Shown here: positions 162 through 42,949 of the stretch, in pieces
Layout of the letters: the number at the start of each line of letters is the position of its first letter
Position numbering within the stretch: position 1 is the first letter of the stretch
Virus record (IMG/VR): IMGVR_UViG_3300028569_000060
Location: 1-45,150 of that record
Origin: a virus
Direction: 5' to 3' (one strand)
DNA length: 45,150 nt
The notes under the pieces: generated by a model
What the model saw: only the letters and a program-made list of their open reading frames with translations
Database searches by the model: none
What the model was told of the DNA's origin: nothing
Position numbers and translations under genes: made by a program

Positions 162-170
162 TATTTATTA
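162..170 (+). promoter_or_regulatory. Candidate late promoter TATTTATTA
   Basis: One instance of the TATTTAT motif that recurs before most gene starts in this window. It follows the sheath terminator and ends only two bases before the ATG at 173, so a transcript from it would be leaderless or nearly so. Function is inferred from recurrence and position. Confidence 0.5.
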
Positions 171-172
171 AT

Positions 173-1006
173 ATGAATTATAAAAGAATAGTTAGGCAAC
201 TCATTAATGAAATAATTGATGATGCGCACACACCAATTATGAAATATTATGCTTTTGATTGGGATGATAATCTAATGTATATGCCAACAAAAATATATTT
301 GAAAGATAACAATGGTAAATCGGTTGGTATGTCGACAGAAGACTTTGCTGAATATAGGACTTTAATTGGAAATGAAGATTTTAATTATGAAGGCAATACT
401 ATTGTAGGTTTTGATGAAGACCCTTTTAGAGATTTTAGAGTAACTGGGGATAAGAAATTCTTGGAATATGCAATGAAAGCACCCACTGGACCCGCTTGGC
501 CCGATTTTATAGAAGCGATTAATAACGGTTCTATATTTTCAATTGTGACGGCAAGAGGTCACACACCAAGTATATTAAAACAAGGGGTATATAATTTAAT
601 AAAGAAAAATATGCACGGCTTAGATTCAAATAAACTTGCAAAAAATTTATTAAAATATAGAAATCTAGCGGATGAAGATAAATTAACAAAAGACCAACTA
701 ATAAGAGCTTATCTTGATATGTGTAGGTTTTATCCTGTTTCTTTTGGCGAAGGTTCGGCAACCAATCCTGAACAAGCAAAAATAGAAGCTATGGAAGAGT
801 TTGTTGATTATGTAAAACTTACTTCAAGGAATCTACAAACAAAAGCTATGATGAAAAATAAAATTAGTAATTACTTTACACCATTTATTGGATTTTCAGA
901 TGATGATGTAAGAAATGTAGACTCTATGAAAAAACATTTTGATAAGAAAGAAGACAATATATTAAAGACTTATTTAACAGCAGGAGGAAAAAAGAAGCAA
1001 TATTAA
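173..1006 (+). CDS. HAD-superfamily phosphatase-like protein with a possible capsid-targeting N-terminus
   Basis: 277 residues from ATG 173; this start is preferred over GTG 125, which lies in the sheath terminator. HAD signatures are visible: motif I FDWDDN with the nucleophile/acid pair D29 and D31, motif II IVTARG with T126, and motif III GFSDDDVRNVD with acidic residues 243-245. HAD enzymes hydrolyse phosphate esters through an aspartyl-phosphate; the substrate here is unknown (nucleotide, polynucleotide 3'-phosphate or other). The first 17 residues, MNYKRIVRQLINEIIDD, form a short basic-amphipathic segment like those on the proteins at 29864 and 33107, possibly a tag for packaging into the head. 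The gene interrupts the conserved sheath-tube pair and has its own TATTTATTA motif. Enzyme family fairly sure; role unknown. Confidence 0.7.
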   Translation: MNYKRIVRQLINEIIDDAHTPIMKYYAFDWDDNLMYMPTKIYLKDNNGKSVGMSTEDFAEYRTLIGNEDFNYEGNTIVGFDEDPFRDFRVTGDKKFLEYAMKAPTGPAWPDFIEAINNGSIFSIVTARGHTPSILKQGVYNLIKKNMHGLDSNKLAKNLLKYRNLADEDKLTKDQLIRAYLDMCRFYPVSFGEGSATNPEQAKIEAMEEFVDYVKLTSRNLQTKAMMKNKISNYFTPFIGFSDDDVRNVDSMKKHFDKKEDNILKTYLTAGGKKKQY

Positions 1007-1007
1007 G

Positions 1008-1050
1008 TAAGTAGTTATTATATATATTAATTAAGTAGTTATTATATATA
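1008..1050 (+). repeat. Direct repeat of 19 bp in the sheath-tube gap
   Basis: TAAGTAGTTATTATATATA occurs at 1008-1026 and again at 1032-1050, a 24-base period, just after the phosphatase stop codon. No hairpin or gene is seen in the rest of this 144-base gap apart from the TATTTATCA motif at 1105-1113. It may be a slippage duplication. Confidence 0.7.
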
Positions 1051-1104
1051 GGTATATTATTTGAAAATAATTTGAAGTAAATAGAAAAATTTTTCATAAT
1101 CATA

Positions 1105-1113
1105 TATTTATCA
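1105..1113 (+). promoter_or_regulatory. Candidate late promoter TATTTATCA
   Basis: TATTTAT motif 37 bases before the tail tube ATG. The downstream sequence ATAAAGAAAAATAAA resembles the context of the copy at 4226. The long A-rich leader to 1150 has no Shine-Dalgarno sequence. Confidence 0.55.
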
Positions 1114-1150
1114 ATAAAGAAAAATAAACATTAAAAAAAAATAAAAAATT

Positions 1151-1639
1151 ATGGCTGATTTATTAATGAAAATGCCAGTTCCGTATGAACCGAAAAGACA
1201 GAATAGGTTTATCGTTAGGTTTCCTTCAAGTTTGGGGATTAACGAATGGTTTGTTGAAAGTGCATCAAGACCGTCAATTAAAGTAGGTTCAACAGAAATC
1301 CAATTTCTAAATACCTCAACTTATGTTGCTGGTAGATTTAACTGGGACCCAATTACTGTTAAATTTAGAGATCCAATTGGACCTTCCGCATCACAAGCAC
1401 TAATGGAATGGATGCGTTTATGTGCTGAATCAGTTACAGGACGTATGGGTTATGCTGCTGGTTATAAGAAAAATGTAGATTTAGAAATGTTAGACCCAAC
1501 CGGTGTTGTTGTCGAAAAATGGATTTTAGAAGGTACATTTATGACTGACTTGAACTTTGGTTCTTTATCTTATTCTCAAGATGCAATTGCTGATATTTCA
1601 GCAACACTTAGAATGGACCGTTGTATATTGGTTTATTAA
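1151..1639 (+). CDS. gp19: Tail tube protein (T4 gp19-like)
   Basis: 162 residues, essentially the length of T4 gp19 (163). Recognisable family features are the N-terminal NRFIVRFPSSLGINEWFVES, the 'SASRPSI' turn, the central DPITVKFRDPIGPSASQALM and a C-terminal SYSQDAIADISATLRMDRC strand. gp19 subunits stack as hexameric rings forming the inner tube, onto which the sheath assembles. The position downstream of the sheath gene and upstream of the chaperone and tape measure genes agrees. Expression is probably late, from the TATTTATCA motif at 1105. The start follows an A-rich leader; the upstream frame offers no alternative. Confidence 0.92.
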   Translation: MADLLMKMPVPYEPKRQNRFIVRFPSSLGINEWFVESASRPSIKVGSTEIQFLNTSTYVAGRFNWDPITVKFRDPIGPSASQALMEWMRLCAESVTGRMGYAAGYKKNVDLEMLDPTGVVVEKWILEGTFMTDLNFGSLSYSQDAIADISATLRMDRCILVY

Positions 1640-1669
1640 TTTTTTACACACCCTTTACAACCAAAATAT

Positions 1670-1709
1670 AAATCCATATATTTATTAGAAATAGTAAATG
1701 TATGGATTT
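1670..1709 (+). promoter_or_regulatory. Hairpin with nested TATTTATTA motif covering the endonuclease start codon
   Basis: Bases 1670-1687 pair with 1692-1709 for 18 positions (two G-T wobbles) around a GAAA tetraloop (1688-1691). The left arm contains TATTTATTA (1679-1687); the right arm contains the ATG of the endonuclease (1702-1704). RNA reading through from the tube gene would hide the start codon, whereas RNA started at the motif would lack the left arm and leave it open. This is the design known for T4 I-TevI; its working here is inferred. Confidence 0.7.
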
Positions 1710-3285
1710 TTCTTTTTTTACAACTAATAATAAGTCTGGATATAAGACCAATGAAAAGTGGTTAAGTAATAATGAACCAGAATTGTATTCAAAAATAGTT
1801 GAGTATTCAAAAAAAAACCAAAGTGATATAACATTTAAGGAAAAAATATATTTTTATTTTCATAATTTAACACAAAGACCAAAATGTGTTTCTTGTAATA
1901 ATGAAATAAAATTTAGAAATAGATTTGATAAACCATACGGTGATTTTTGTTCTTTAACTTGTGCGAATAATTCAAAAGAAGAATTGGTTAATCGACAGAA
2001 AAAAACATTCAATAAAAAGTATGGTGTTGATTTCTACACCCAACACAATGATTTTGTAAAAAAACAAAAAGAAACCAAACTAAAAAAGTATGGGAATGAA
2101 AATTACAATAACGTAAAAAAAAGTAAAAAAACCAAAGAAGTTAATTATGGTAATGGTAATTACAATAATATAGAAAAACAAAAATTAACTTGTAAAACAA
2201 AATATGGGGTTGATAATTATGCAAAATCAAATAACTATAAAAATAAATTAATTAAGGAATTTAAAAATTTATATTCAGACATTAACTTTAATGAAGTTAA
2301 AAAAGGTTCGGTTGTTATTGTTTGTCCTACTTGCAAAAAAGAATCTGAATTATCAAAACAACTATTATATGAAAGACATAAAAGAAATTATGAATGTTGT
2401 CTTAATTGTAACCCAATTGGTTTTTCCCAAAGGAGTGGTTATGAAGACGAGATTTCAAGGTTCTTAAATGAAGTTAATACAAAACATATAACAAACTACA
2501 AATTACCAAATTCAAAGGTTGAGATTGATTTATTTATTCCAGAACATAACCTGGGTTTTGAATTTAACGGACTTTACTGGCACAATGAATTATTTAAAAC
2601 ACCAAACTATCATTTAGAAAAAACGATTAAATGCAATAATCTTGGAATTAATTTGGTTCATATTTTTGAAGATGAATGGATTTATAACAAAGAAGTTGTA
2701 AAATCAATTATTAAGAATAAATTAAACATTAGTGAAAATAAAATTTATGCTAGAAAGTGTATAATAAAAGAAGTGTCAACACAAGAAACCAAAAAATTCT
2801 TGGAGGACAATCATATACAAGGAAATGTAAATTCAAGTGCTAAGTTAGGATTATACCACAATAATGAACTTGTATCCCTTATGACCTTTTCAAAAGGGAG
2901 AATTATTATGGGTGGGAAAAGTAATGAGTGGGAGTTAAATAGATTTTGTAATAAGTTAAATACAAATATAATTGGTTCAGCATCAAAATTATTAAAATAT
3001 TTTGTAACAAATTATAAACCAGAAAAATTAATATCATATTCTGATATTAGAATTTTTGATGGTAAAATGTATGAAAAATTAAATTTTAAAATGATTTCAC
3101 AATCAAAACCAAATTATTGGTACGTAATTGGAGACAAGAGACATTATAGATTTAATTTTAAAAAATCAAACTTGGTAAAAGAAGGTTATGATAAAAACAA
3201 AACCGAAAAACAAATTATGTTTGATAGGAAAATTTATAGAATATATGATTGTGGAAACATTAGATGGGAATTAACTATTGATTAA
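1702..3285 (+). CDS. Large free-standing homing-type endonuclease (Vsr/PD-(D/E)XK-like)
   Basis: 527 residues. An N-terminal four-cysteine zinc-finger-like unit (C62, C65, C83, C87) is followed by several short repeats around KKYGV/KKYGN/NYGNGNYNN/TKYGVDNY (about residues 100-175), which resemble the DNA-binding repeats of phage homing endonucleases. A second CxxC pair lies near 209. A Vsr-like nuclease core follows at about 245-330, with 'SKVEIDLFIPE' and 'GFEFNGLYWH' supplying candidate acidic residues, then HIFEDEW. The C-terminal part (about 380-500) has the LGLYHNNELVSLMTF and SYSDIRIFDGKMYEKLNF segments common in this family. It sits alone between tail genes, as mobile endonucleases do, and its start codon lies in a regulatory hairpin. 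Exact family name uncertain. Confidence 0.8.
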   Translation: MDFSFFTTNNKSGYKTNEKWLSNNEPELYSKIVEYSKKNQSDITFKEKIYFYFHNLTQRPKCVSCNNEIKFRNRFDKPYGDFCSLTCANNSKEELVNRQKKTFNKKYGVDFYTQHNDFVKKQKETKLKKYGNENYNNVKKSKKTKEVNYGNGNYNNIEKQKLTCKTKYGVDNYAKSNNYKNKLIKEFKNLYSDINFNEVKKGSVVIVCPTCKKESELSKQLLYERHKRNYECCLNCNPIGFSQRSGYEDEISRFLNEVNTKHITNYKLPNSKVEIDLFIPEHNLGFEFNGLYWHNELFKTPNYHLEKTIKCNNLGINLVHIFEDEWIYNKEVVKSIIKNKLNISENKIYARKCIIKEVSTQETKKFLEDNHIQGNVNSSAKLGLYHNNELVSLMTFSKGRIIMGGKSNEWELNRFCNKLNTNIIGSASKLLKYFVTNYKPEKLISYSDIRIFDGKMYEKLNFKMISQSKPNYWYVIGDKRHYRFNFKKSNLVKEGYDKNKTEKQIMFDRKIYRIYDCGNIRWELTID

Positions 3286-3322
3286 ATCAAGTATTGATAT
3301 ATTTTTATAATAAAAAAAGAAT

Positions 3323-4093
3323 ATGGAAACTAATGTTAATGATTACGGCCAAATGAATTTTAATTTACCACACGATGTGGTGCCACTTCCATCCGGAGGG
3401 ATATTCTATCCAAACAAAAAGAAAAGTGTTAAAGTTGGTTATTTAACGGCCGCTGACGAAAATATATTAGTTAATATGGATGGTAATAAGTCAATTAAAG
3501 AAACCTTAATATTACCATTATTAAGAAATAAATTATATGAACCAGATTTAAGACCAGAAGATTTACTTGATGGTGATTTGGAAGCAATTTTATTATTTTT
3601 AAGAAACACATCTTTTGGTCCAGAATATACTGTTTCTGTTAATGATCCACAAACAGGAAAATTATTTGACGCTACAATTGTTCTTGATGAGTTAAATATT
3701 AAAAAAAATTCAGTAGAACCAGATAGTGATGGTACGTTTACTGTTACATTACCAAAATGTAAGTCAACAGTTAAATTAAAACCTTTAACTATGAAAGAAT
3801 ATTTAGAAATAGAAAGAACGTTAGATTCGTACCCACAAGGTAGAATACAACCTACTGTTACATTAAGACTCAATAAACTTATTGTTGAATTGGACGGAAA
3901 AGAAAATAAAGGAGATATCGCAAAATTTGTCGAATCAATGCCAATCTCTGATTCAAAGTATATTAGAAACTTTATGTTTGAGAACGAACCTAGACTTGAT
4001 CTATCAAAAGAAGTTATCGCCCCATCAGGAGAAAGAGCAGTAGTGTCTATTGCTTTTGGGGTGGAGTTTTTTCGGCCTTTCTTCTCAATATAA
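3323..4093 (+). CDS. Tail assembly chaperone / gp26-like protein, short frame
   Basis: 256 residues in the unshifted frame. The N-terminus has VVPLPSGGIFYPNKKKSVKV and YLTAADENILVN, followed by a helical DLLDGDLEAILLFLRNTSFG segment; these resemble T4-like gp26-type baseplate/tail assembly proteins. The gene lies between the tail tube and tape measure genes, the usual place of the G/GT-type tail assembly chaperones that coat the tape measure during tail growth. As in those systems, an ORF without an ATG overlaps its 3' end in another frame (4044-4223), so a longer product of about 299 residues is likely. The TATTTTTATAATAA leader resembles a degenerate copy of the late motif. Chaperone role is from context; gp26 similarity is from memory of the family. 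Confidence 0.72.
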   Translation: METNVNDYGQMNFNLPHDVVPLPSGGIFYPNKKKSVKVGYLTAADENILVNMDGNKSIKETLILPLLRNKLYEPDLRPEDLLDGDLEAILLFLRNTSFGPEYTVSVNDPQTGKLFDATIVLDELNIKKNSVEPDSDGTFTVTLPKCKSTVKLKPLTMKEYLEIERTLDSYPQGRIQPTVTLRLNKLIVELDGKENKGDIAKFVESMPISDSKYIRNFMFENEPRLDLSKEVIAPSGERAVVSIAFGVEFFRPFFSI

Positions 4094-4223: not shown

Positions 4224-4225
4224 AG

Positions 4226-4234
4226 TATTTATCA
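4226..4234 (+). promoter_or_regulatory. Candidate late promoter TATTTATCA
   Basis: TATTTAT motif 15 bases before the tape measure ATG, within the 26-base gap after the chaperone extension. The 12-16 base spacing recurs before 1702, 6323, 18437, 29864 and 33565. Confidence 0.6.
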
Positions 4235-4249
4235 ATAAACTAAAACCCA

Positions 4250-6259: not shown

Positions 6260-6287
6260 TAAAGTCTTAATTACATTTCAAAAAAAT

Positions 6288-6310
6288 TATTTATAATCTA
6301 TTTATAAATA
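6288..6310 (+). promoter_or_regulatory. Two TATTTATAA motifs in tandem
   Basis: TATTTATAA occurs at 6288-6296 and 6299-6307. The second is part of the palindrome TATTTATAAATA (6299-6310), which also contains TATAAATA, the T4 late promoter core. The second copy ends 15 bases before ATG 6323. Confidence 0.6.
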
Positions 6311-6322
6311 AAATTAAAATTA

Positions 6323-11542: not shown

Positions 11543-11543
11543 T

Positions 11544-18414: not shown

Positions 18415-18423
18415 TATTTATAA
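18415..18423 (+). promoter_or_regulatory. Candidate late promoter TATTTATAA
   Basis: TATTTATAA within the palindrome TATTTATAAATA (18415-18426), 13 bases before ATG 18437. Like the pair at 6288-6310 it includes TATAAATA in the sense direction. Confidence 0.6.
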
Positions 18424-19384: not shown

Positions 19385-19413
19385 TTGACTGCGACACAAA
19401 TTTTAACTATAAT
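19385..19413 (+). promoter_or_regulatory. Near-consensus sigma70-type promoter for gp32
   Basis: TTGACT (19385-19390) and TATAAT (19408-19413) are separated by exactly 17 bases. A start site near 19420 would give a leader of about 25 bases to ATG 19445. It is the only such match I noticed in an intergenic region here and precedes the replication module. A Bacteroidetes-type -7 box (TAnnTTTG) is not clearly present. Confidence 0.7.
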
Positions 19414-20384: not shown

Positions 20385-21395
20385 ATGGCAATTAAGAAAA
20401 ATGACTTTAGTTCGATTAAGAAAAAATTCTCTTCGGACGCAAAATACAAACCACAAAGATACTTTGATTTAGGACCAGCATTTTTGGATGCAGTTGGACT
20501 TCCTGGTCCTGCGATGGGACATATTAATATGTTTTTGGGTCACTCTGATACTGGTAAAACAACAGCACTTGTTAAAACAGCAGTTGACGCACAGAAAAAA
20601 GAAATACTACCAGCTTTTATTATCACAGAACAAAAATGGTCTTTTGAACACTCAAAACTTATGGGTTTTGAGTGTGAAGAAGTTGTTGATGAAGAAACTG
20701 GAGAATTAACTTGGGACGGATTCTTTTTATTCAATAATAATTTTAGTTACATTGAACAAATTACAGACTATATTAATGATTTGTTAGATGCACAAGAAAA
20801 AGGTGAACTTGATTATTCACTATGTATTATGTGGGATTCTGTTGGATCTGTTCCTTGTAAAATGACCTATGAAGGTAAAGGTGGTAAACAACATAACGCA
20901 TCAGTTCTTGCCGATAAAATTGGCATGGGAATTAACCAACGTATTTCTGGGTCAAGAAAAGCAGATTCAAAATTTGAGAATACATTGATTATTGTAAATC
21001 AACCTTGGGTTGAATTACCAGACAATCCATTTGGACAACCAAAGATTAAGGCCAAGGGTGGTGAAGCAATTTGGTTAAATTCATCATTGGTATTTTTATA
21101 TGGAAATCAAAAAGGCGCTGGAACAACAAAGATTACCGCAACAAAAGACAAGAGAACTGTTAAGTTTGCATCAAGAACAAAAGTATCGGTTATGAAAAAC
21201 CATATCAACGGACTTGGATTTGAAGATGGAAAAATTATTGTTACACCTCATGGATTTTTACCTGGAAAAGACGCAACAGAAGAAAAGAAATCTATTGAAG
21301 ATTACAAAAAAGATTATGCTGAATATTGGAAAAATATTATTGGTGTAGATGGTGAATTTGATTTAAAAGAAGAAAAAGTTTATGAACAAGAATAA
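20385..21395 (+). CDS. uvsX: UvsX/RecA-family recombinase
   Basis: 336 residues from ATG 20385, the start that leaves the upstream terminator outside the gene. Walker A is GHSDTGKTT (residues 52-60); Walker B is CIMWDSVGS (about 146-154); the RecA-like NTLIIVNQPW strand and a GGEAIWLNSSLV segment follow. UvsX coats single-stranded DNA, searches for homology and exchanges strands; in T4 it works with gp32 and drives recombination-dependent replication. The gp32-uvsX pairing here fits that partnership. The C-terminal 14 bases overlap the methyltransferase start, so the two are probably coupled. Length is shorter than T4 UvsX (about 390). Confidence 0.9.
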   Translation: MAIKKNDFSSIKKKFSSDAKYKPQRYFDLGPAFLDAVGLPGPAMGHINMFLGHSDTGKTTALVKTAVDAQKKEILPAFIITEQKWSFEHSKLMGFECEEVVDEETGELTWDGFFLFNNNFSYIEQITDYINDLLDAQEKGELDYSLCIMWDSVGSVPCKMTYEGKGGKQHNASVLADKIGMGINQRISGSRKADSKFENTLIIVNQPWVELPDNPFGQPKIKAKGGEAIWLNSSLVFLYGNQKGAGTTKITATKDKRTVKFASRTKVSVMKNHINGLGFEDGKIIVTPHGFLPGKDATEEKKSIEDYKKDYAEYWKNIIGVDGEFDLKEEKVYEQE

Positions 21396-23466
21396 GTTGA
21401 AAGTAGTATCATTATTTTCCGGTTATGGAACGCAAGAACTAGCACTTAAATATATTGGGGTTGATTATGAAAACGTTGCAAATTGTGACAATTTCAAACA
21501 AGCAAACGAATGTTATGACGTTTTACATACAACAACAAATGGAAATTTAGGTGATATTACAAAAATTGATGAAAATAACTTTCCAGAATGTGATTTATTG
21601 ACATATTCATTCCCTTGTTTTACTAAAGACACATTAATACTAACAAGTACCGGTTATAAAAATATTGTTGATGTTGAAATTGATGATTTAGTTTTGACAC
21701 ATACTAACACATATAAAAGAGTTACAAACAAATTTGATCAAGGCAAGAAAGAAATTTGGAATGTAACATCACCAATATTTGATGAATTAAAAACAACTGA
21801 AAACCATAGGTTCTATGTTGTGTCTAAAATTGATGGAAATAAAAATAATCTAACAGAACCTTATTGGAAAGAATGTAAGGATTTAACAAGTAATGATTAT
21901 CTTGGTGTTGCGATAAATCAAAATAGTATTATACCAAAGTGGGATGGGATTGATTTTAAATGGGGAGATGGTAGAAAAACCAGACACAAAAATGAATTAT
22001 CAAAATATATGGATAATAATGATTTTTGGTGGTTGATTGGAAGATATATTGGTGATGGCTGGATGAGACATCAAAGTGGTATCATAATTTGTTGTACTAA
22101 TAAAAATGATAAAGAACTTATTGATATTAGTGAAAGATTAGAAAGATTAGAATTTAACGCAACTGTTGTTAGAGATGGGTCAACCTATAAAATACATTTA
22201 CCAAAAAAAGAAATTGGTTTATTTGTTGAACAATTTGGTAAATATGCTCACGGTAAAAGATTAAATAATACTATTTTAGATTTACCGATTAATTTATTAG
22301 AATCATTTATTGAAGGGTATTTTTCTGCTGACGGTTATACAATGAAAAATGGTTTAAAAAGATTTACAAGTGTGAGTCGAGAGTTAATATATGGTATCGC
22401 ACAGTGTGTTAGTAAAGTTTATAAAGTACCATATTCTATCTACAAAACAGAAAGACCATCAACCTACGTTATTGAAAATAGAGTTGTAAACCAAAAAGAC
22501 ACATATCAAGTAACATTTAAAACTGAAGAAATAAAAAGAAATAAAATATTCTATGATAATGGATATGTTTGGTCAAAAATTATTGGTGTTGAAAACACTG
22601 AAAAAAATGATTCAGTTTATGATATTGAAGTAGATGAAGATCATTCATTCACTGCAAATGGTTGTATCGCCCATAATTGCCAGGACATTTCAATTTCTGG
22701 TGTACAAAGAGGAATTAAAGAAGGAACAAGAAGTGGATTATTATTTGATGTTGAAAGATTATTATCGGCAAATAGACCAAAGTTTCTTTTAATGGAAAAC
22801 GTAAAAAATCTAATATCAAAAAACCACATAGAAAATTTTCAAAAACATATCTATTTTTTAAGAGGACTTGGTTATAGTTCATTTTGGAGAGTACTTAATG
22901 GTGCTGATTTCGGTTGTCCCCAAAATAGAGAAAGAGTTTTTATGATGTCAGTCCTAAATAGTAGTGTTGATGAAGTTAAAGAAAAGATGATGAACGTTGA
23001 TAATCATAAAAAAACAAGAATCTCTATGAGACCCCATATTGAACAAAATTTTGATGAATCATTAATTGTTAATTGTCAGTTCACACCACACACACCAAAA
23101 AAACATACAATTTGTAAATTAGTCGGTAGAAGGGATGATGTTAAATATGATCAAGCTAGAAGAATTTATTCTGTTGATGGTTGTTCACCTTGTTTAACAA
23201 CAAGTGGGTCTCCGCAAATATTGACAGAAGATGGTAGAGTAAGAACAATTACAGCAAGAGAAGGTTACAGATTTATGGGTGTTAAAGAACAGGATATTGA
23301 CACACTTCTAACAACATCATTATCAAATACAACACACGTAGCTTTAGCTGGAAACTCAATTTGTGTACCTGTAATGGAAGCAATATTTTCAGAGTTCTTT
23401 TCTGATTATATGACTAAAAAAGAACCAGTATTGTCAAACCCACTTAACGAAGAATTTAATGACTAA
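21382..23466 (+). CDS. DNA (cytosine-5) methyltransferase containing an intein
   Basis: 694 residues as encoded; about 340 after removal of the 354-residue intein (79-432). Extein motifs are all visible: I LFSGYGTQE (11-19), IV FPC|QDIS with catalytic Cys433 joined to Pro78 after splicing, VI ENVKNL (472-477), VIII QNRERVF (514-520), then a target-recognition region, IX CLTTSGSP...TAREGYRFMG and X ALAGNSICVPV. Such enzymes transfer a methyl group from S-adenosylmethionine to C5 of cytosine, here probably to guard phage DNA against host restriction or to mark it. The recognition sequence cannot be read from the protein. It overlaps uvsX by 14 bases and the 5' nuclease by 8 bases. Splicing must occur for activity. 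Confidence 0.93.
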   Translation: MNKNKLKVVSLFSGYGTQELALKYIGVDYENVANCDNFKQANECYDVLHTTTNGNLGDITKIDENNFPECDLLTYSFPCFTKDTLILTSTGYKNIVDVEIDDLVLTHTNTYKRVTNKFDQGKKEIWNVTSPIFDELKTTENHRFYVVSKIDGNKNNLTEPYWKECKDLTSNDYLGVAINQNSIIPKWDGIDFKWGDGRKTRHKNELSKYMDNNDFWWLIGRYIGDGWMRHQSGIIICCTNKNDKELIDISERLERLEFNATVVRDGSTYKIHLPKKEIGLFVEQFGKYAHGKRLNNTILDLPINLLESFIEGYFSADGYTMKNGLKRFTSVSRELIYGIAQCVSKVYKVPYSIYKTERPSTYVIENRVVNQKDTYQVTFKTEEIKRNKIFYDNGYVWSKIIGVENTEKNDSVYDIEVDEDHSFTANGCIAHNCQDISISGVQRGIKEGTRSGLLFDVERLLSANRPKFLLMENVKNLISKNHIENFQKHIYFLRGLGYSSFWRVLNGADFGCPQNRERVFMMSVLNSSVDEVKEKMMNVDNHKKTRISMRPHIEQNFDESLIVNCQFTPHTPKKHTICKLVGRRDDVKYDQARRIYSVDGCSPCLTTSGSPQILTEDGRVRTITAREGYRFMGVKEQDIDTLLTTSLSNTTHVALAGNSICVPVMEAIFSEFFSDYMTKKEPVLSNPLNEEFND
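21616..22677 (+). mobile_element. Full-length intein with LAGLIDADG endonuclease
   Basis: 354 codons, in frame within the methyltransferase. Splicing signals: first residue Cys (CFTKDTLILTSTGYKNI, block A), block B TTENHRFYV, block F VYDIEVDEDHSFTANG, and block G IAHN followed by Cys as the +1 extein residue. Two dodecapeptide motifs, WLIGRYIGDG and FIEGYFSADG, mark an intact DOD-type homing endonuclease with both acidic residues. The element would splice itself out of the protein and spread by cutting intein-free alleles of the same gene. It sits at the most conserved point of the host enzyme, directly before its catalytic cysteine. Confidence 0.95.
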
Positions 23467-24932: not shown

Positions 24933-24941
24933 TATTTATCA
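24933..24941 (+). promoter_or_regulatory. Candidate late promoter TATTTATCA before the helicase
   Basis: TATTTATCA lies mostly in the loop of a small hairpin (AGTAAT 24925-24930 with ATTACT 24941-24946). It is the only copy seen before a replication gene. The helicase also has a clear Shine-Dalgarno-like GAAGGA at 24951-24956, six bases before its ATG and unusual in this window. Confidence 0.45.
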
Positions 24942-28235: not shown

Positions 28236-28248
28236 TTAAATTTTAGTA

Positions 28249-28287
28249 TTAGAATGGTGATAAATTAAACTTTACTCACCATTCTAA
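28249..28287 (+). terminator. Inverted repeat after nrdJ
   Basis: TTAGAATGGTGA (28249-28260) is perfectly complementary to TCACCATTCTAA (28276-28287), 12 bp with a 15-base loop, followed by TATTTATT. It begins 13 bases after the nrdJ stop codon and could terminate nrdJ RNA and shield the next gene from read-through. Confidence 0.7.
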
Positions 28288-28326
28288 TATTTATTATGTA
28301 TGGGACGTAAAGGTATTAGTAAATAT
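28287..28326 (+). promoter_or_regulatory. TATTTATTA motif in a second hairpin around the HNH start codon
   Basis: TATTTATTA (28288-28296) ends three bases before ATG 28300. ATATTTATTA (28287-28296) can pair with TAGTAAATAT (28317-28326), one wobble, leaving the ATG in a 20-base loop. This fold competes with the inverted repeat at 28249-28287 only at base 28287. Compare the hairpin at 1670-1709. The stem is AT-only and weaker, so less certain. Confidence 0.45.
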
Positions 28327-29180: not shown

Positions 29181-29221
29181 GTTATGGTTTATATTTATAT
29201 AAAAAATATATAAACCATAAC
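29181..29221 (+). promoter_or_regulatory. 14-bp hairpin with nested TATTTATAT motif before the second HNH gene
   Basis: GTTATGGTTTATAT (29181-29194) is perfectly complementary to ATATAAACCATAAC (29208-29221), loop 29195-29207. TATTTATAT (29192-29200) spans the left arm and loop, so a transcript starting about six bases later would lack the left arm. The right arm ends nine bases before ATG 29231. It could equally be a terminator for the upstream gene, though there is no strong T-run. Confidence 0.65.
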
Positions 29222-29842: not shown

Positions 29843-29851
29843 TATTTATAA
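29843..29851 (+). promoter_or_regulatory. Candidate late promoter TATTTATAA
   Basis: Directly after the terminator at 29807-29835 and 12 bases before ATG 29864. A terminator followed at once by this motif also occurs at 126-170, which supports a promoter role. Confidence 0.6.
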
Positions 29852-30666: not shown

Positions 30667-30701
30667 TATTTATTCAAAATTACTATAATGTATATTTATG
30701 T
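30667..30701 (+). promoter_or_regulatory. Two TATTTAT motifs before the gp25 gene
   Basis: TATTTATTC at 30667-30675 lies 29 bases, and TATTTATGT at 30693-30701 three bases, before ATG 30705. The downstream copy has the same near-zero spacing as those before 173 and 28300; which is active, if either, is unknown. Confidence 0.5.
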
Positions 30702-33015: not shown

Positions 33016-33105
33016 TATTTATATTGTAAATAATGAATCAAAAAAAAAACAAACTTTTCATAATATCAATATTTTTATATTGTAAATAATGAATCAAAAA
33101 AAAAC
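33016..33105 (+). repeat. Duplicated promoter-and-start segment before a small tagged gene
   Basis: TTTATATTGTAAATAATGAATC occurs at 33018-33039 and 33074-33095, each followed by an A-run and C (10 A, then 9 A). The first copy has TATTTATAT (33016-33024) and opens an 18-codon ORF (ATG 33033) that ends in TAATG, overlapping the second copy's ATG 33089. The second copy has a weaker TATTTTTAT. A tandem duplication of about 56 bp has left a leader-peptide-like ORF. Confidence 0.75.
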
Positions 33106-33106
33106 G

Positions 33107-33436
33107 ATGAAAAAAATAGTTAGATTAACAGAATCAGATTTAACAAGAATTGTTAAAAGAGTAATTAAAGAAAGTAACCTTAGACCATATAATGATGAAG
33201 ATAGGGCCGAAGACGAAAGGATTGGAGAAATGATTGACGAATTTCAAGATTCATTTTATGATGTTTTTGATTTTGACTATAATGAGGCATTTCCAGAATT
33301 TAATAAAGAATCATTTAGATTTAACGATAAATTAAATGATTTTATTGTTGATATGGTAGATGAAGACCCAGAACATGCTGTTAGAATGTTACGTAAAGAA
33401 CCTTGGTTTAGACCATATGTAAAATATCTTAGATAA
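33107..33436 (+). CDS. Small acidic protein with a shared tag-like N-terminus
   Basis: 109 residues from ATG 33107; ATG 33089 would add MNQKKT, which derives from the duplicated leader. The N-terminus MKKIVRLTESDLTRIVKRVI matches the style of MKIKITESQLKRIIERY at 29864: basic, amphipathic, with an 'LTES/ITES' turn and later a Glu that could serve as a cleavage point. The rest is acidic and aromatic (DEFQDSFYDVFDFDYNEAF), ending EPWFRPYVKYLR. No enzymatic motif is visible. A terminator follows. The segment may direct proteins into the prohead; that is a hypothesis. Confidence 0.65.
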   Translation: MKKIVRLTESDLTRIVKRVIKESNLRPYNDEDRAEDERIGEMIDEFQDSFYDVFDFDYNEAFPEFNKESFRFNDKLNDFIVDMVDEDPEHAVRMLRKEPWFRPYVKYLR

Positions 33437-33458: not shown

Positions 33459-33486
33459 AAACCCCAATTACAAGTTGGGGTTTTTT
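33459..33486 (+). terminator. Rho-independent terminator
   Basis: AAACCCCAA (33459-33467) pairs with TTGGGGTTT (33475-33483), loop TTACAAG, T-run to 33486. It closes the gp25-gp6-tagged-protein group. The rest of the gap to 33564 holds only the promoter motif at 33540. Confidence 0.9.
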
Positions 33487-33539
33487 CTTTCTTTTACTTT
33501 TTTTATAAAAGGATTATTTTTTGAAAATAGGAAATAAAC

Positions 33540-33548
33540 TATTTATCA
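33540..33548 (+). promoter_or_regulatory. Candidate late promoter TATTTATCA
   Basis: TATTTATCA, 16 bases before ATG 33565 and about 55 bases after the terminator. It would drive the long run of tail genes 33565-42913, which are closely packed or overlapping. Confidence 0.6.
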
Positions 33549-33564
33549 AAAAAGAAGAAATTTA

Positions 33565-39186: not shown

Positions 39187-40934
39187 TGCCAATAGATAAC
39201 TCAACTGTAATAGTACAAAGTAACAAAAGATACCAGGGTGCGCCAGTACTTGATGGTCAACAAAAAATTGTTCTTGAGCAAACATCACACGAACAAGTTG
39301 AATATGAAAGATATATAGACGTTAACCTTGAAGAAACTTTTGTTAATGAAAGAGAAGCGTCTAATGTTTTTAGACCAAGCACAAAATATAATCTAATAAT
39401 AAAAAACAAATATTCTGGAAGTACCGTTTACCAACCATATGTTGATTATTTAGCATACACAAAAGTAACTGAAACAACTGAAAAGATTGCTTGTGGTTTA
39501 ACACCTATTGAATGGTATGGTTTTCCACAATATTCTGAATTTGATTTTATAAGAACTGATAATAACCAAGTTGGTTACACATCAGGTGTTAATAACCATC
39601 AAATTTTTATAAACAAAAGTGCGTCAACCTATAATTGGACACACTATATGACTTACCCATATTCAAACGACTATACAAAAACATTATATGTTCACGACCC
39701 ACAAACAATTGCAACTTGGACTTTCCAAGCTCAAGACGGCATACCTTATTTAATCACATCAAGAATTAATAATTTAATTACGTTTAGATGTCCAATGAAA
39801 CACGGATTAAGTACAAGACAATATGTCCAACTACCATTCAGTTATAATGGAACAGACTTATTTGAAGTTGATTCTGTTGGTGATGGTGGTTCTGGTAGTG
39901 AAGAATATATTTTTAACATATTTGATATTGGTTATTTAACAACAAATTTTAATCCAGGAAACACTGGTAATTTAAAGAAAGTTTTGGATCCAGTAAATTC
40001 TGCCGAAACAATGTCGAAATATTATGTTAAGGTTAATAAGATTTTGACTGAAGTTGGTGATGCAATTTTAACAAAATCTGGATTTGAAGAAAACATTTTT
40101 AATTTAAAAACACAATTTGAAAAAGTTTTATCTGGAGGAACACCACTTCAAATTCTAACACCACCAACTTGTCCAAGAACATCAATAGTTGAAGGTTCAC
40201 AATGTTATACACTATCATTTAATCGAGACATTGATATTAGTAAAATACGAGATAATCAAAATAGACCAATAAACGAACTGTACTTTACAAGTGTTTGGAA
40301 AGGATATTGGGGTTGGACAAATAAATTAAGAGAAGGATATGAATTTAATATGCCTTTACAGAATAATGCACCGTCCATTTATTGGGATTTAAATAATGGT
40401 CTATCAAATACTAATATTGCAAATATTTCATATACAACTATTGCAGGTTCTGGACCTTTTTACTATAATAGTGATTTAAAAAAAGATGATTTATTATATG
40501 GTGATTTTTGTGAGTGGAATGACTTTACACAAGAAGAAAGGATTGTTTCACGTAAAGTTCATAAATTTACATTTAATCAAAATTGGTTTACACAATATGA
40601 TTTATTTTCATTAACTAACCAACTTGGTTATTACTATTACCCACACAATCCAGTAACAATTAGAGTTTTTTCTGAATATGTTGAAGAAGGTGATGTAAAT
40701 GTTGTGACAGGAATACCAGATTGGGCATTTTATTCAAATAGTTCAAATGGTTTTAGATGGAGAGATATATATCCTTATGGTTATGTAGATTCTTCTGGAT
40801 TAGGTGTTGATTATCCATTCACAAATGGAAAACATTATCCTTTTAATACAACAATTTTTAGATTATTCTATGAAGGTATAGGTCAACCAGATATAACACA
40901 AATACAAGAACCAACCGAAGATGAGTGTGAATAA
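39186..40934 (+). CDS. Tail/baseplate structural protein
   Basis: 582 residues. Visible blocks: an N-terminal EYERYIDVNLEETFVNEREA, a central PPTCPRTSIVEGSQCYTLSF, LLYGDFCEWNDFTQEERIVS, and a C-terminal YYYYPHNPVTIRVFSEYVEE, then GFRWRDIYPYGYVD and YPFTNGKHYPFN. These aromatic, Tyr/Asn-rich strands fit a surface tail protein; I associate the C-terminal block with tail proteins of T4-like phages of Bacteroidetes. The ATG overlaps the preceding stop codon by one base and its end overlaps the next gene by 14 bases. The T4 counterpart by position is gp8, unproven. Confidence 0.62.
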   Translation: MPIDNSTVIVQSNKRYQGAPVLDGQQKIVLEQTSHEQVEYERYIDVNLEETFVNEREASNVFRPSTKYNLIIKNKYSGSTVYQPYVDYLAYTKVTETTEKIACGLTPIEWYGFPQYSEFDFIRTDNNQVGYTSGVNNHQIFINKSASTYNWTHYMTYPYSNDYTKTLYVHDPQTIATWTFQAQDGIPYLITSRINNLITFRCPMKHGLSTRQYVQLPFSYNGTDLFEVDSVGDGGSGSEEYIFNIFDIGYLTTNFNPGNTGNLKKVLDPVNSAETMSKYYVKVNKILTEVGDAILTKSGFEENIFNLKTQFEKVLSGGTPLQILTPPTCPRTSIVEGSQCYTLSFNRDIDISKIRDNQNRPINELYFTSVWKGYWGWTNKLREGYEFNMPLQNNAPSIYWDLNNGLSNTNIANISYTTIAGSGPFYYNSDLKKDDLLYGDFCEWNDFTQEERIVSRKVHKFTFNQNWFTQYDLFSLTNQLGYYYYPHNPVTIRVFSEYVEEGDVNVVTGIPDWAFYSNSSNGFRWRDIYPYGYVDSSGLGVDYPFTNGKHYPFNTTIFRLFYEGIGQPDITQIQEPTEDECE

Positions 40935-41739
40935 ATATAAAATAGTGAAATCAGCAATTGGTAAACAAATAGATTTACCAATCGAAATGAAATGGGATTT
41001 TTCAGAAAGAGACCAAGCCATTGATACCTACCAAGGTGAAGTACTTGATGAACTTATTGGATTACCAAATGACTTTGAACTTTCAAGATTTTCACATAGT
41101 CAGTATGTTGCAACAAATAATGTGGACATACTAACAAAAATAAATTACGAATTTTATTTCTTTGATACTGGAGATACAATAAACAACTCAACATCTTGGC
41201 ACAACAGTTATCTATATGAAGATTTTACAAAACAAGATGTTTATTACTTTTCAAAACCTTTTACGAAGTCATTTTTTAAATTAGATTTTTATGATACACC
41301 AAATGAATCTAACCAAAAAAACTATTTTTCTATAATACTACCAGTACAACAAGGTGATTTTGAAACAGTAACAATTTCAACTTTTTTACAGAACGTACAA
41401 ATTAGAAAACCAAAAATGGGATTAGATTTTGTTGGGGATAAAGAAGGATTTTTCATTTATTGGTTACGTGAGAATTTTTATATAAACATAAATGAATTTT
41501 ATATGTCTGCTAAATTTTTTAATGCAAGACGAGGGATTTTTGTTAATATGATGAATCGACCCCAATCAATATTTTCAGCATCAGGTAATTATTATACATT
41601 TAATAAAGCAAATTATTTTTACTATAAAGTTAGTTTAAATTACCCGTCAAAAACATATGAGGTTTATGATACAATAACTGGACTTAGAGTTGGAACAGAT
41701 GTTTCATCGATAAATTGGTATGAATATTTAAACCCATAA
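40921..41739 (+). CDS. Tail-associated structural protein of unknown function
   Basis: 272 residues, not recognised. It starts with MSVNKYKIVKSAIGKQIDLP and DFSERDQAIDTYQGEVLDEL, then aromatic beta-rich sequence (GFFIYWLRENFYININEFYM) and ends SINWYEYLNP. No catalytic motif, signal peptide or membrane helix is seen. It overlaps the upstream gene by 14 bases, and the next ATG starts one base after its stop codon, so it belongs to the same translationally coupled late operon. A baseplate or fibre-attachment role is inferred from context. Confidence 0.62.
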   Translation: MSVNKYKIVKSAIGKQIDLPIEMKWDFSERDQAIDTYQGEVLDELIGLPNDFELSRFSHSQYVATNNVDILTKINYEFYFFDTGDTINNSTSWHNSYLYEDFTKQDVYYFSKPFTKSFFKLDFYDTPNESNQKNYFSIILPVQQGDFETVTISTFLQNVQIRKPKMGLDFVGDKEGFFIYWLRENFYININEFYMSAKFFNARRGIFVNMMNRPQSIFSASGNYYTFNKANYFYYKVSLNYPSKTYEVYDTITGLRVGTDVSSINWYEYLNP

Positions 41740-41740
41740 T

Positions 41741-42913
41741 ATGGAAGAGCAAAAGTATTATTTTAAAATTTCTAGAGAAAACATATTGGGTGATATTGCT
41801 CAAGTACCTTACACTGGTGAAACCGATATTACGGTTTCAATAGATCCTTGTTGTCCTATAACATCAACAACAGTAAATACCTTGACTGGAACGACTGGTT
41901 ATTATTTACCAATGGACTACTTATTGTCTGCAGGACCAAATAATCAGTCATTACTTACTTGTTTAACAGTACCACTTCTTTTCACACAAACAGCAATAGA
42001 TATTGGATATTACACACCTTTTGATGGTGCCGTATTACAAAAAGATGTTATTATTAATTTTTTATGGTCAGCAGATACAAGCTCACCTTATACTGTAACT
42101 TTTTTTAATACTTCAGAGAAAGAACTTAAAAAATTCTTAACACTAAGTAAATACACATTAGATTGGGGTGATAATTCACCTTTAATAACATTAACAAGTA
42201 GTTTACCAATAACGCATACTTATGTTAATTCACCACAAGATTATGTTATTAAATTGAAGTCTGAATCACCTTGGGGTATGTCTAACGTAGAAAAACCAAT
42301 TAAATTACCATATACTGGTTTAACAATCGATAATCCACAAGGTACGGCATATTTTACACCAGCAGGTTGTACTTGGACTGGAACACCAGTTAGTTATGAG
42401 TACATATTTACTGGTGACTCAAATACAAACATTCTTGATTATAATAGTAGTAATTACACCACAGTTCCTTTTTTAATTACTGGTTTTACACAAAGTAGTG
42501 TAAACGATCTTGCGGTTTATGGCCCAAAATTTAATTTATTTGGTGGAAAATTTAAACTTAATATACCAATAACTGGAAACTCTGGGACACAGGGTGTTTA
42601 TTTAGGTCCAGACCCAACAAATAGTTATACGGCATATACAATAGACAATATTTTATATTGGGATTTATCCGATGGTACTACAATTTATTTTATTTCTTCT
42701 TATGGTATAGATGTAGATTTATTCACATTATCAGCAATAACAAAAAACGAGGCATTACTCAATGTTATTGATGAACCAGCGATTGAATCGGAGTTATTTA
42801 TAGAACGCGGTAAGGTTTCGGGACTAGAAACAATGCAGAGACTTGGTGAAATAGATAACTTGGGAGATATAACCAAGTATGGTTATGGATTTTTTAGAGT
42901 CAAAAAATTCTAA
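41741..42913 (+). CDS. Tail protein with PKD-like domain
   Basis: 390 residues. A PKD-like beta sandwich is suggested at about 138-174 by YTLDWGDNSPLITLTSS and ITHTYVNSPQDYVIKLKS, the 'W.fGD...hTY...G.Y.V.L' pattern of extracellular PKD domains used for binding polysaccharides or proteins. A second beta-rich half follows. The C-terminus, LFIERGKVSGLETMQRLGEI then DNLGDITKYGYGFFRV, is a block I associate with phage tail proteins of this type. Position in the tail operon suggests a short fibre, adhesin or baseplate surface protein. Domain call moderate; receptor unknown. Confidence 0.6.
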   Translation: MEEQKYYFKISRENILGDIAQVPYTGETDITVSIDPCCPITSTTVNTLTGTTGYYLPMDYLLSAGPNNQSLLTCLTVPLLFTQTAIDIGYYTPFDGAVLQKDVIINFLWSADTSSPYTVTFFNTSEKELKKFLTLSKYTLDWGDNSPLITLTSSLPITHTYVNSPQDYVIKLKSESPWGMSNVEKPIKLPYTGLTIDNPQGTAYFTPAGCTWTGTPVSYEYIFTGDSNTNILDYNSSNYTTVPFLITGFTQSSVNDLAVYGPKFNLFGGKFKLNIPITGNSGTQGVYLGPDPTNSYTAYTIDNILYWDLSDGTTIYFISSYGIDVDLFTLSAITKNEALLNVIDEPAIESELFIERGKVSGLETMQRLGEIDNLGDITKYGYGFFRVKKF

Positions 42914-42920
42914 AAGGTCG

Positions 42921-42949
42921 TATTTATTAAAAGATAAACATTATAAATA
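42921..42949 (+). promoter_or_regulatory. Late promoter-like pair TATTTATTA and TATAAATA
   Basis: TATTTATTA at 42921-42929 and, 12 bases later, TATAAATA at 42942-42949, the exact T4 late promoter core. The latter ends seven bases before the GTG start at 42957. The pairing leaves open which sequence is the element used. Confidence 0.5.

Follow-up and report, generated by a model that had tools for sequence, protein, structure and literature searches.

Why does a single AT-rich word, TATTTAT, stand before so many genes of this viral DNA, and what reads it? T4 late transcription is the textbook example of a phage sigma factor, and an earlier note had read TATTTAT as a candidate late promoter recognized by a gp55-like sigma. 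We analyzed virus DNA of 45,150 nt (IMGVR_UViG_3300028569_000060, positions 1-45,150), here called the window, together with relatives that include three large genomes of 309-321 kb (G002, G013, and G014). Gene starts come from a simple ORF caller, and enrichment was judged against dinucleotide shuffles of the gaps (2,000 for the window).

The 1,471 intergenic nt of the window hold 16 sense copies of TATTTAT, while 1.97 are expected and the largest count in any shuffle was 8. The motif occupies 14 of the 18 gaps of at least 20 b, and every copy that the earlier note listed before structural or accessory units is present. Coding DNA has 5 sense copies in 43,679 nt; TATTTAT is thus far commoner between genes than in either shuffled or coding DNA. 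Over the entire window, both strands counted, there are 36 copies against 40 expected, which is not above chance. Since the whole-window count is near chance and the intergenic count far above it, location is what matters. The whole-window count and a composition of about 70% AT would suit a base-composition artefact of AT-rich intergenic DNA. However, shuffled gaps give 2.0 against 16 in the window and 11 against 94 in G002. Ten A/T control 7-mers tell the same story: eight precede 0 to 4 genes at a distance of 4-6 nt, compared with 102 for TATTTAT, and the remaining two (18 and 28 genes) overlap TATTTAT. The artefact, to which we assign practically no probability, is refuted by the shuffles. 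Between window genes, ATAAATA, the reverse complement, occurs about as often as chance predicts (5 versus 3.0 expected), and tandem gaps of the window carry 15 sense and 5 antisense TATTTAT (expected 1.8 and 3.1). At 6299 and 18415, TATAAATA marks junctions where TATTTAT runs into ATAAATA. The copies and their neighboring elements, with distances to the start codon, are as follows.

126..150, + strand: intrinsic-terminator-like hairpin and T-tract, flagged by the detector; the T-tract ends 11 nt 5′ of the motif at 162
162..168, + strand: TATTTAT, 4 nt 5′ of ATG 173; follows the terminator at 126-150 and is a predicted late promoter for a leaderless message
1105..1111, + strand: TATTTAT, 39 nt 5′ of the tail-tube gene (1151); conserved in 77 of 80 relatives
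1679..1685, + strand: TATTTAT, 16 nt 5′ of ATG 1702
4226..4232, + strand: TATTTAT, 17 nt 5′ of ATG 4250; 16, 18, and 20 nt in orthologues
6288..6294, + strand: TATTTAT, first of two, 28 nt 5′ of ATG 6323
6299..6305, + strand: TATTTAT, second of two, 17 nt 5′ of ATG 6323; 13, 14, and 16 nt in orthologues
18415..18421, + strand: TATTTAT, 15 nt 5′ of ATG 18437
19385..19413, + strand: sigma70-type promoter, TTGACT-17-TATAAT, before the gp32 gene (19445) in place of TATTTAT
24933..24939, + strand: TATTTAT, 23 nt 5′ of the DnaB-like helicase gene (24963)
28247-28260 / 28276-28289, + strand: hairpin placed by eye, its 3′ end overlapped by the next motif
28288..28294, + strand: TATTTAT, 5 nt 5′ of ATG 28300; predicted leaderless
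29192..29198, + strand: TATTTAT, 32 nt 5′ of ATG 29231
29843..29849, + strand: TATTTAT, 14 nt 5′ of ATG 29864; a weak hairpin and T-tract, placed by eye, lie upstream
30667..30673, + strand: TATTTAT, first of two, 31 nt 5′ of the gp25 gene (30705)
30693..30699, + strand: TATTTAT, second of two, 5 nt 5′ of the gp25 gene (30705); predicted leaderless
33016..33022, + strand: TATTTAT, 66 nt 5′ of the ORF at 33089 and 10 nt from a nearer ATG (33033) that is part of a short duplication
33540..33546, + strand: TATTTAT, 18 nt 5′ of a 1,873-aa ORF (33565) that has no Pfam match; 14, 17, and 16 nt in orthologues
42921..42927, + strand: TATTTAT, 29 nt 5′ of GTG 42957; 16 nt in the orthologues of two relatives

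Distances earlier given as 2-37 nt had to be corrected to 4-39 nt, plus 66 nt once. As the note had said, TATTTAT is absent before the genes for gp32 (19445), UvsX (20328), the methyltransferase (21382), the 5′ nuclease (23459), and nrdJ (26376), and a sigma70-type promoter similar to the one listed above precedes gp32 in all three large relatives. The copy before the DnaB-like gene is possibly due to chance or peculiar to the phage of the window, because the orthologues in the three large relatives have no TATTTAT directly upstream. A terminator had been proposed before two copies. By eye, a hairpin with a T-tract precedes the copies at both 173 and 29864, but the detector, which requires G+C, flags only that of 173; the hairpin at 28300 was likewise placed by eye. 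The two distances seen at gp25 recur singly in the relatives: G002 and G014 have the 5-nt spacing and G013 the 31-nt one.

TATTTAT is enriched in the window and in all seven relatives tested (G002, G004, G006, G007, G008, G013, and G014). It precedes 94 of 199 gapped genes in G002 and 90 of 241 and 91 of 210 in the other two large relatives, with 11, 19, and 14 expected. Motif discovery, which the note had put forward as a check, returned it as the top 7-mer in the window, G002, G004, G007, and G008; in G006 it came third, with GATATTT on top. Before tail-tube genes, 77 of 80 loci have the motif (3.3 expected). Counted by distinct sequence, the figure is 55 of 57, though these sequences share ancestry and so are not independent. 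Read toward the gene, the consensus is RTATTTATW.

Orientation is just as uneven. Tandem gaps of G002 hold 70 sense and 5 antisense copies (expected 7.7 and 6.1), those of G013 hold 65 and 14 (12.2 and 15.6), and those of G014 hold 64 and 16 (8.8 and 9.8). This bears out the claim that the box lies in the opposite sense to the T4 core: it spells TATTTATW in the direction of the gene, and T4 TATAAATA is the reverse complement of that. One could suppose that the functional element is in fact a T4-type TATAAATA on the opposite strand that drives antisense RNA, given that reverse complementing the T4 late box yields exactly TATTTATA and that T4 late transcription is described as proceeding in both directions (PMC2988020). 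We hold this to be very unlikely: the copies point toward the gene, their distance to the ATG is tightly constrained, and a peak of A lies on the gene side.

The genes behind the motif are mostly late in type. Among 13 named structural or lysis genes of G002, 8 have TATTTAT directly upstream and 3 more lie in motif-headed runs, and it precedes none of seven replication-type genes (SSB, UvsX, 5′ nuclease, DnaB, ThyA, PhoH, and the sigma gene). The hub, nrdJ, and a nuclease are exceptions to this split in G002, and the baseplate-hub gene lacks TATTTAT in each of the three large relatives. In G013, a motif-headed run includes the genes for the 5′ nuclease and DnaB. In G014, TATTTAT occurs 42 nt upstream of the SSB gene, within the spacer of a sigma70-type promoter, probably by chance. 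Upstream of the motif we found no −35 element: no position from −45 to −3 exceeds 0.31 bits, compared with 1.4 in the core. Nor do motif-bearing gaps of G002 match the Bacteroidota housekeeping promoter, TTTG-N17-21-TAnnTTTG. Its looser form, TTG-TAnnTTTG, occurs in 10 of 94 gaps without TATTTAT (0.46 expected) and shows no enrichment in the motif-bearing ones (1 of 82; 0.23 expected). Early and replication genes would use sigma70-type or Bacteroidota-type promoters instead.

The distance from motif to ATG falls into two classes. For 275 genes, 102 distances are 4-6 nt, 8 are 7-11 nt, and 87 are 12-17 nt, where uniform placement gives means of 18.6, 31.1, and 34.8; the distribution is bimodal, extends to 40 nt, and avoids 7-11 nt. 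The triplet 4-6 nt past intergenic motifs is ATG in 133 cases, TTG in 6, GTG in 1, and CTG in 1. In the far class, A peaks at the 5th to 7th nt past the motif, the very position of the A of ATG in the close class. A terminator T-tract ends no more than 15 nt 5′ of the motif in 10/53, 6/43, and 3/34 close-class genes of the three large relatives and in 5/48, 3/44, and 5/49 far-class genes. In the 10 of G002, terminator and motif are 1-11 nt apart and 12-24 nt separate T-tract from ATG; in three G002 genes this interval is only 12-13 nt. Orthologues tend to keep their class: 17 pairs are close in both genomes, 38 far in both, and 4 swapped for G002/G014; 12, 29, and 5 for G002/G013; and 12, 29, and 6 for G013/G014.

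From the spacing, the near-exclusive ATG, and the terminators close upstream, we infer that the close class probably gives leaderless mRNA. RNA would start on an A at about the 5th to 7th nt past the motif. With an ATG 4-6 nt away, the starting A would be that of the AUG; with an ATG at 12 nt or more, a short A-rich leader would result, of the kind favored by Bacteroidota ribosomes, and leaders of about 2-6 nt would be avoided. Leaderless messages had been suggested for 173, 28300, and 30705, and these fit the large predicted close class of the relatives. In the three large genomes, spacing predicts leaderless messages for 39 of 94, 36 of 90, and 27 of 91 genes with the motif; for the window and fragments, the prediction is 2-5 of 13-23. 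TATTTAT could also be imagined as an RNA element in the 5′ leader (a translation enhancer or a stability or processing site) with the promoter further upstream, and close-class motifs, 4-6 nt from the ATG, do sit near the position of a ribosome-binding signal. But the region upstream has no strong element, the distances form two groups and extend to 40 nt, terminators leave little room in the G002 close class, and in one case two opposed TATTTAT fit within the 33 nt that separate two start codons. An RNA element is therefore improbable.

A gp55-like sigma gene, expected by the earlier note, is present in the large relatives but absent from this 45-kb fragment, and from fragments G004-G012 as well; it occurs in 5 of 16 contigs that have a similar uvsX. 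T4 gp55 as a query matches the clade sigma with E 1.7e-4 among 406 proteins. The clade profile, in turn, has gp55 as its best PDB match (E 0.0035) and finds gene 55 in T4 (E 5.9e-5), so the relation is weak but reciprocal. PHROG 234 scores weakly against the clade sigma (E 0.043 in a library scan, 0.004 per genome). The sigma alignment omits rows L345, L346, and L348. By sequence, then, region 2 of this protein appears distantly related to T4 gp55. An AF2 model of middling confidence (pLDDT 68, pTM 0.40) suggests that it carries the region 2 fold: it superimposes on sigma-E region 2 (4lup_A) with Z 9.1 and rmsd 2.5 Å over 91 residues, on a scale where helical folds can often give Z values up to about 13. 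Foldseek with this model returned nothing below 1e-3.

The clade sigma is about 60 residues longer than gp55 and has a C-terminal domain in place of the gp55 tail. The gp55 tail binds the clamp. A hydrophobic C-terminal motif is described in gp55 (PMC2988020), and in an alignment by eye, the T4 tail is without a clear counterpart in the clade domain. The domain (model pLDDT 80) aligns with sigma-A region 4 (6ono_B) at Z 5.3 and rmsd 3.5 over 68 residues, a score that other helical chains equal, and a fold search gave no clear match. By PF02916, a gp45 clamp scores above the cut-off in T4 only (1 of 9), with weak signals in LR756508 (0.011) and G002 (0.035). The phrog_223 model found none in 16 records, with its control silent everywhere, and four proteins from around the Mel-JY01 clamp loader gave no match at E 0.1 in the three large relatives. 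PHROG 12791, a second late-sigma family, found nothing in the 16 records, its positive control being silent too. RNA polymerase beta′ (PF00623) was found in none of 8 records (control, 14 of 14); because a phage beta′ was not found, we infer that host RNA polymerase is used. Bacterial genomes yielded no sigma relatives in a host search whose query reaches close relatives only.

Other phages bear on whether sigma and motif belong together. Flavobacterium phage immuto has TATTTAT in 33 of 96 gaps and Microcystis phage Mel-JY01 in 22 of 71, and each has a sigma relative, gp118 in the case of immuto; among 7-mers, TATTTAT ranks fourth and tenth there. Rhodothermus phage RM378 has TATTTAA in 18 of 56 gaps, a weak sigma relative (p020), and an annotated sigma factor (p144). 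The sigma relatives of all three are annotated as hypothetical. Spacing differs, being 11-24 nt in immuto (21/33), 32-41 nt in Mel-JY01 (12/22), and 6-9 nt in RM378 (10/18). LR756508 has the sigma (E 1.2e-36) and TATTTAT in 1 of 98 gaps versus 1.9 expected, with 140 of its 484 kb read. This phage, and RM378 with its weak relative and second sigma, would suit a promoter read by a host sigma or another phage regulator instead of the gp55-like protein. Against this, TATTTAT is not enriched in two AT-rich Bacteroidota phages that lack the sigma in the stretch read (1/25 and 0/28 gaps), and the host-type TTG-TAnnTTTG is enriched only where the motif is missing. On balance, another regulator seems unlikely, though less so than the alternatives above.

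The reading we prefer, with a probability of about 0.78, is that RTATTTATW is a late promoter box: a −10-like element without a −35, to which a gp55-related phage sigma would direct the host RNA polymerase late in infection, with starts and leaders as proposed above. Intergenic enrichment, motif discovery, and the sigma gene in relatives support the earlier note on this point. Also in its favor, sigma and motif occur together in immuto and Mel-JY01, and the two Bacteroidota phages with a similar AT content show no motif enrichment and lack the sigma in the stretch read. Counting against it are the sigma of LR756508 without motif enrichment, the weak gp55 family-model scores, the middling structure model, and the other 7-mers that outrank TATTTAT in G006, immuto, and Mel-JY01.

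T4 late promoters are likewise described as a lone AT-rich box about one helical turn 5′ of the start, with AT-rich DNA downstream (PMC2988020). Both systems lack a −35, serve late or structural genes, and have a phage-encoded sigma-like factor. In the clade, the box stands about one turn from the predicted start, and G002 shows the late-gene preference, with its exceptions. It is the box facing the gene that differs, TATTTAT being the sense form. The same pipeline recovered TTATAAA/ATAAATA from T4; 12 of 13 TATAAATA copies there lie at 14-28 nt from the start, and a 4-6 nt class is missing. phiKZ and AR9 resemble the clade as giant phages with short late motifs; phiKZ late promoters are given as TATG with G as the start, phage transcripts as often leaderless, and AR9 leaders as 26-491 nt (PMC5312081). 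Unlike the clade, in which no beta′ gene was found, phiKZ and AR9 use phage-encoded multisubunit RNA polymerases at late promoters.

The clade may belong among the Far-T4 phages, uncultured T4 relatives from seawater and freshwater (Roux et al. 2015, PMC4360716). The main text of that paper does not contain the words promoter, motif, sigma, or gp55; tetranucleotides there favor an Anaplasmataceae host for one clade, whereas we propose Bacteroidota for the present one. In open-licence PMC papers, titles, abstract starts, and text matches do not describe TATTTAT as a phage late promoter. We lean, somewhat better than evenly, toward a giant T4-related clade, probably of Bacteroidota, with a flipped T4 box, a gp55-family sigma with an extra C-terminal domain, and two late regulons set by spacing alone. 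The leaderless regulon would comprise mostly genes without a known family, along with gp25 and a head-completion gene; the regulon with short A-rich leaders would hold most of the major structural genes. Such a system would be a sister of T4 late transcription that reads the box from the opposite strand, and would illustrate how specificity can flip. Spacing would then act as a built-in switch between two modes of translation, in hosts with few leaderless mRNAs: the spacing rule predicts far more leaderless genes than the 5.5% of examined mRNAs reported for Flavobacterium psychrophilum (PMC9723704). Motif and spacing together offer a rule by which the operons of these genomes can be located and their gene starts called correctly, and the motif's presence in a cultured phage makes the promoter question testable. 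The clade is common, with at least 600 related stretches matched.

TATTTAT is no more frequent than chance over the window as a whole (36 copies against 40 expected). Intergenic DNA (1,471 bases) holds 16 sense copies against 1.97 expected, the highest count in 2,000 shuffles preserving dinucleotides only being 8, and the 43,679 coding bases hold 5 sense copies. This comparison with shuffled intergenic and coding DNA bears out the observation of the earlier note that the motif stands before transcription units. It is present in 14 of the 18 window gaps of 20 bases or more and is the top enriched 7-mer; ATAAATA between window genes reaches 5 copies against 3.0 expected. With gene starts taken from a simple ORF caller, we counted motif-bearing genes in the window, four relative fragments (G004, G006, G007, and G008) and three large relatives (G002, G013, and G014). 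In G006, GATATTT and ATATTTA rank above TATTTAT, which is third.

Genes preceded by a gap that carry TATTTAT (expected number in parentheses)
Window: 14 of 19 (1.8)
G004: 23 of 51 (4.9)
G006: 16 of 48 (5.4)
G007: 13 of 26 (3.7)
G008: 18 of 27 (3.0)
G002: 94 of 199 (11.1)
G013: 90 of 241 (18.8)
G014: 91 of 210 (13.9)

The window, an IMG/VR virus record, has a GC content of 28 to 34% along its 45,150 bases, and its main genes lie on the plus strand.

Pfam assignments in the window
T4 gp19 tail tube: E 2.3e-5, under its cut-off
T4 baseplate; gp32; 5' nuclease; DnaB-like helicase; class II RNR; gp25; Baseplate_J
RecA/UvsX-like protein: under cut-off
C5 methylase with intein

The intein carries a LAGLIDADG endonuclease domain and splits the C5 cytosine methyltransferase gene (21382-23466). 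Separately, two copies of a stretch with TATATTGTAAATAATGAATCAA lie at 33016-33110, one immediately ahead of ORF 33089 and one where it begins, and this start looks duplicated.

The tail-tube search gave at least 600 matches. Judged by tail tube, the nearest named relatives are Microcystis phage Mel-JY01, uncultured phage LR756508, Flavobacterium phage immuto, and Rhodothermus phage RM378. At 77 of 80 mutually related loci (3.3 expected), or 55 of 57 distinct sequences, the tail-tube gene is preceded by TATTTAT; two of the three loci missing it have TGTTTAT. G002, an uncultured phage of 321 kb, was picked via the tail tube and has same-order counterparts for 20 of the 25 window proteins tested. 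G013 (309 kb) and G014 (317 kb), picked for holding the sigma gene described below, are similar.

Extended to 8 letters (TATTTATA), the motif is the reverse complement of the T4 late box, TATAAATA. The orientation of its copies was counted in gaps whose two flanking genes run the same way.

Sense/antisense copies (expected in parentheses)
Window: 15/5 (1.8/3.1)
G002: 70/5 (7.7/6.1)
G013: 65/14 (12.2/15.6)
G014: 64/16 (8.8/9.8)

Divergent gaps hold copies facing both ways in 8 of 33, 7 of 39, and 10 of 35 cases (G002, G013, and G014), and at one G002 site two copies are squeezed into the 33 nt separating two ATGs. The sense excess and these two-way copies indicate that the element functions in the TATTTAT sense, opposite to the T4 core, one of the two options raised in the earlier note. 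When T4 late genes were run through the same pipeline as a control, TTATAAA, ATAAATA, and TATAAAT were among the top 7-mers, and 12 of 13 cases of TATAAATA lay 14 to 28 nt upstream of a start. TATTTAT occurred 7 times in T4 (1.3 expected), which may be due to divergent genes. Because its sense sequence differs, the motif does not count as a T4 late promoter in the strict sense, yet to judge from sequence it functions similarly.

The consensus at 98 G002 sites is [AG]TATTTAT[AT], with 50 sites in a close class, 4 to 6 nt before ATG, and 48 in a far class at 12 nt or more. Between -45 and -3, information peaks at 0.31 bits in the far class (A/G preference at -4) and 0.22 bits in the close class (A/T at -17), compared with 1.4 bits per position in the core; a -35 element is therefore absent. 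Far-class sites mostly have A at the fifth to seventh nt past the motif, where the close-class ATG has its A. If the A of TA is set at -11, by analogy with sigma70-type promoters, +1 would be the sixth nt past the motif.

Distance from motif end to ATG, 275 genes of G002, G013, and G014 (random placement in parentheses)
0-3 nt: 2
4-6 nt: 102 (18.6)
7-11 nt: 8 (31.1)
12-17 nt: 87 (34.8)
18-40 nt: 52
>40 nt: 24

In 5,000 trials of random placement in the same gaps, none was as high as 102 or 87 and none as low as 8. With gene calls ignored, the codons 4 to 6 nt past 365 intergenic copies in the three genomes are ATG 133 times, TTG 6, GTG 1, and CTG 1. A terminator T-tract ends no more than 15 nt before the motif in 10/53, 6/43, and 3/34 close-class cases and in 5/48, 3/44, and 5/49 far-class cases (G002, G013, and G014), and in 1/3 close and 0/10 far cases in the window. 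At G002 122852, 177649, and 265118 the T-tract ends 1 nt before the motif and 12 to 13 nt from the ATG, and hence leaves no room for another promoter. Spacing class is kept between orthologues (close here being up to 8 nt). The 259 G002/G014 pairs (median identity, 64.5%) include 17 close-close, 38 far-far, and 4 swaps; the motif call is missing in the partner for 16 close-class and 12 far-class genes, partly through start-calling differences. G002/G013 gave 12, 29, and 5, and G013/G014 gave 12, 29, and 6. The gp25 gene has close spacing in the window, in G002, and in G014, and far spacing in G013; 3 of the 14 motif-bearing window genes are close. The predicted leaderless starts at close-class genes have good, purely computational support. 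Small genes are densely packed at about 195 to 245 kb of G002; many of them carry close-class motifs, and several resemble one another at the N-terminus (MKYIIT..., MNLNEN...).

In G002 the motif directly precedes the portal, prohead protease, sheath, tube, head completion, gp25, and two endolysin genes; motif-headed runs include TerL (5 genes on) and the major capsid protein and baseplate wedge (1 gene on). It is missing before SSB, UvsX, 5' nuclease, DnaB, ThyA, PhoH, and the sigma gene. The hub gene is also without it, as is a fibre-like ORF where the contig ends. Exceptions that carry it are a nuclease (4 nt) and nrdJ (53 nt). In G013 a close-class motif heads a run holding the 5' nuclease, DnaB, and an NrdB-like gene. 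In G014 a copy lies 42 nt upstream of SSB, the first gene of a run that includes UvsX, 5' nuclease, and DnaB; this copy falls inside the spacer of a sigma70-type promoter. TTGAC(A/T)-17-TATAAT-like promoters precede the gp32 genes of the window and all three large relatives. Enrichment, orientation, conservation, spacing, and the link to structural genes make the late-promoter reading of TATTTAT, as put forward in the earlier note, well supported at the sequence level.

The G002 hub gene (~49185, minus strand) starts right behind a conserved hairpin, AACCGTA...TACGGTT, whose T-tract touches or nearly touches the ATG, with counterparts in G013 and G014. This terminator-like element, in place of the absent late motif, is possibly an attenuator.

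A candidate for the gp55-like late sigma factor proposed in the earlier note was found in the three large relatives; the window itself lacks it. Among 406 G002 proteins, T4 gp55 as a query retrieved a single one, 248 aa long (E 1.7e-4), which in turn matched one immuto protein (E 2.3e-13). A profile of 32 relatives (31 at least 83% identical, plus immuto) placed gp55 top among 177,635 PDB sequences (E 0.0035; runner-up, 0.31) and gave 7 matches in 18 records. Those in G013, G014, G015 (a further record), and immuto are not independent, being chosen for sigma or inside the profile; the independent ones are Mel-JY01 (4.7e-33), LR756508 (1.2e-36), and T4 gene 55 (5.9e-5). There was no match in the window, G004 to G012, or RM378. 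PHROG 234 matches sigma in G001 (another record), G002, and immuto (3 of 16 records, E 0.004 to 0.008), but reaches only E 0.043 in a library scan. Sixteen contigs were picked by uvsX, from 80 loci among the matches listed; five carry the sigma gene, with uvsX 89 to 92% identical to that of the window, and the contigs closest to the window are without it.

The AF2 model of sigma (pLDDT 68, pTM 0.40) matches region 2 of sigma-E in complex with the -10 strand (Z 9.1, 2.5 A, 91 residues); Foldseek returned mostly sigma factors, none below E 1e-3. At the C-terminus, 93 residues make up a helical domain of their own (pLDDT 80) with a weak likeness to sigma region 4 and no clear counterpart in T4 gp55. 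RNA polymerase beta' (PF00623) was not found in 8 records (control positive, 14/14), so the host RNA polymerase is the likely partner. That this sigma would recognize TATTTAT has good support, all of it computational.

Motif-less G002 gaps contain TTTG-N17-21-TAnnTTTG, which we take to be the promoter form of Bacteroidota, in 10 of 94 cases (0.13 expected); a looser TTG form is in 1 of 82 motif-bearing gaps (0.23 expected). In the leader of the tail-tube gene, A is conserved at -3, -5, -6, -12, and -13; according to PMC6847099, initiation in F. johnsoniae is aided by A at -3 and -6, and -12 and -13 are also named. Together, the promoter form and leader positions point to Bacteroidota as likely hosts. 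Bacterial genomes scanned for close sigma relatives yielded none.

In immuto (150 of 160 kb read), TATTTAT is in 33 of 96 gaps (5.1 expected; fourth 7-mer by z), including those of terL, gp20, sheath, tube, hub, tape, and also PhoH; it is not directly before gp23. Mel-JY01 has it in 22 of 71 gaps (4.9 expected; tenth 7-mer; 150 of 190 kb). In RM378 (100 of 130 kb), TATTTAA ranks first, in 18 of 56 gaps (1.5 expected), with 10 of 18 copies 6 to 9 nt from ATG. LR756508 is a real exception to sigma-motif co-occurrence: sigma is present, and TATTTAT is in 1 of 98 gaps (1.9 expected; 140 of 484 kb). Two AT-rich Bacteroidota phages with sigma absent in the stretch read, Cellulophaga phi14:2 (half the genome) and Flavobacterium FCL-2, show no enrichment, with TATTTAT in 1 of 25 gaps (1.06 expected) and 0 of 28 (2.06 expected).

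Other intergenic 7-mers are strongly enriched in immuto (DNA stretches L106, L111, and L107), e.g., TTTAGGT, AGGTATC, GGTATCA, ATCAATA, and TTCGTAT; these may mark an early or middle promoter, or an operator. Those of Mel-JY01 (L110, L260, and L261) overlap into TTCTTGCATAC, a candidate early or middle promoter. RM378 p020 (L109 17032-17826, annotated hypothetical) is matched by the Mel-JY01 sigma relative (44% over 43 aa, E 2e-3) and may be RM378's own late sigma.
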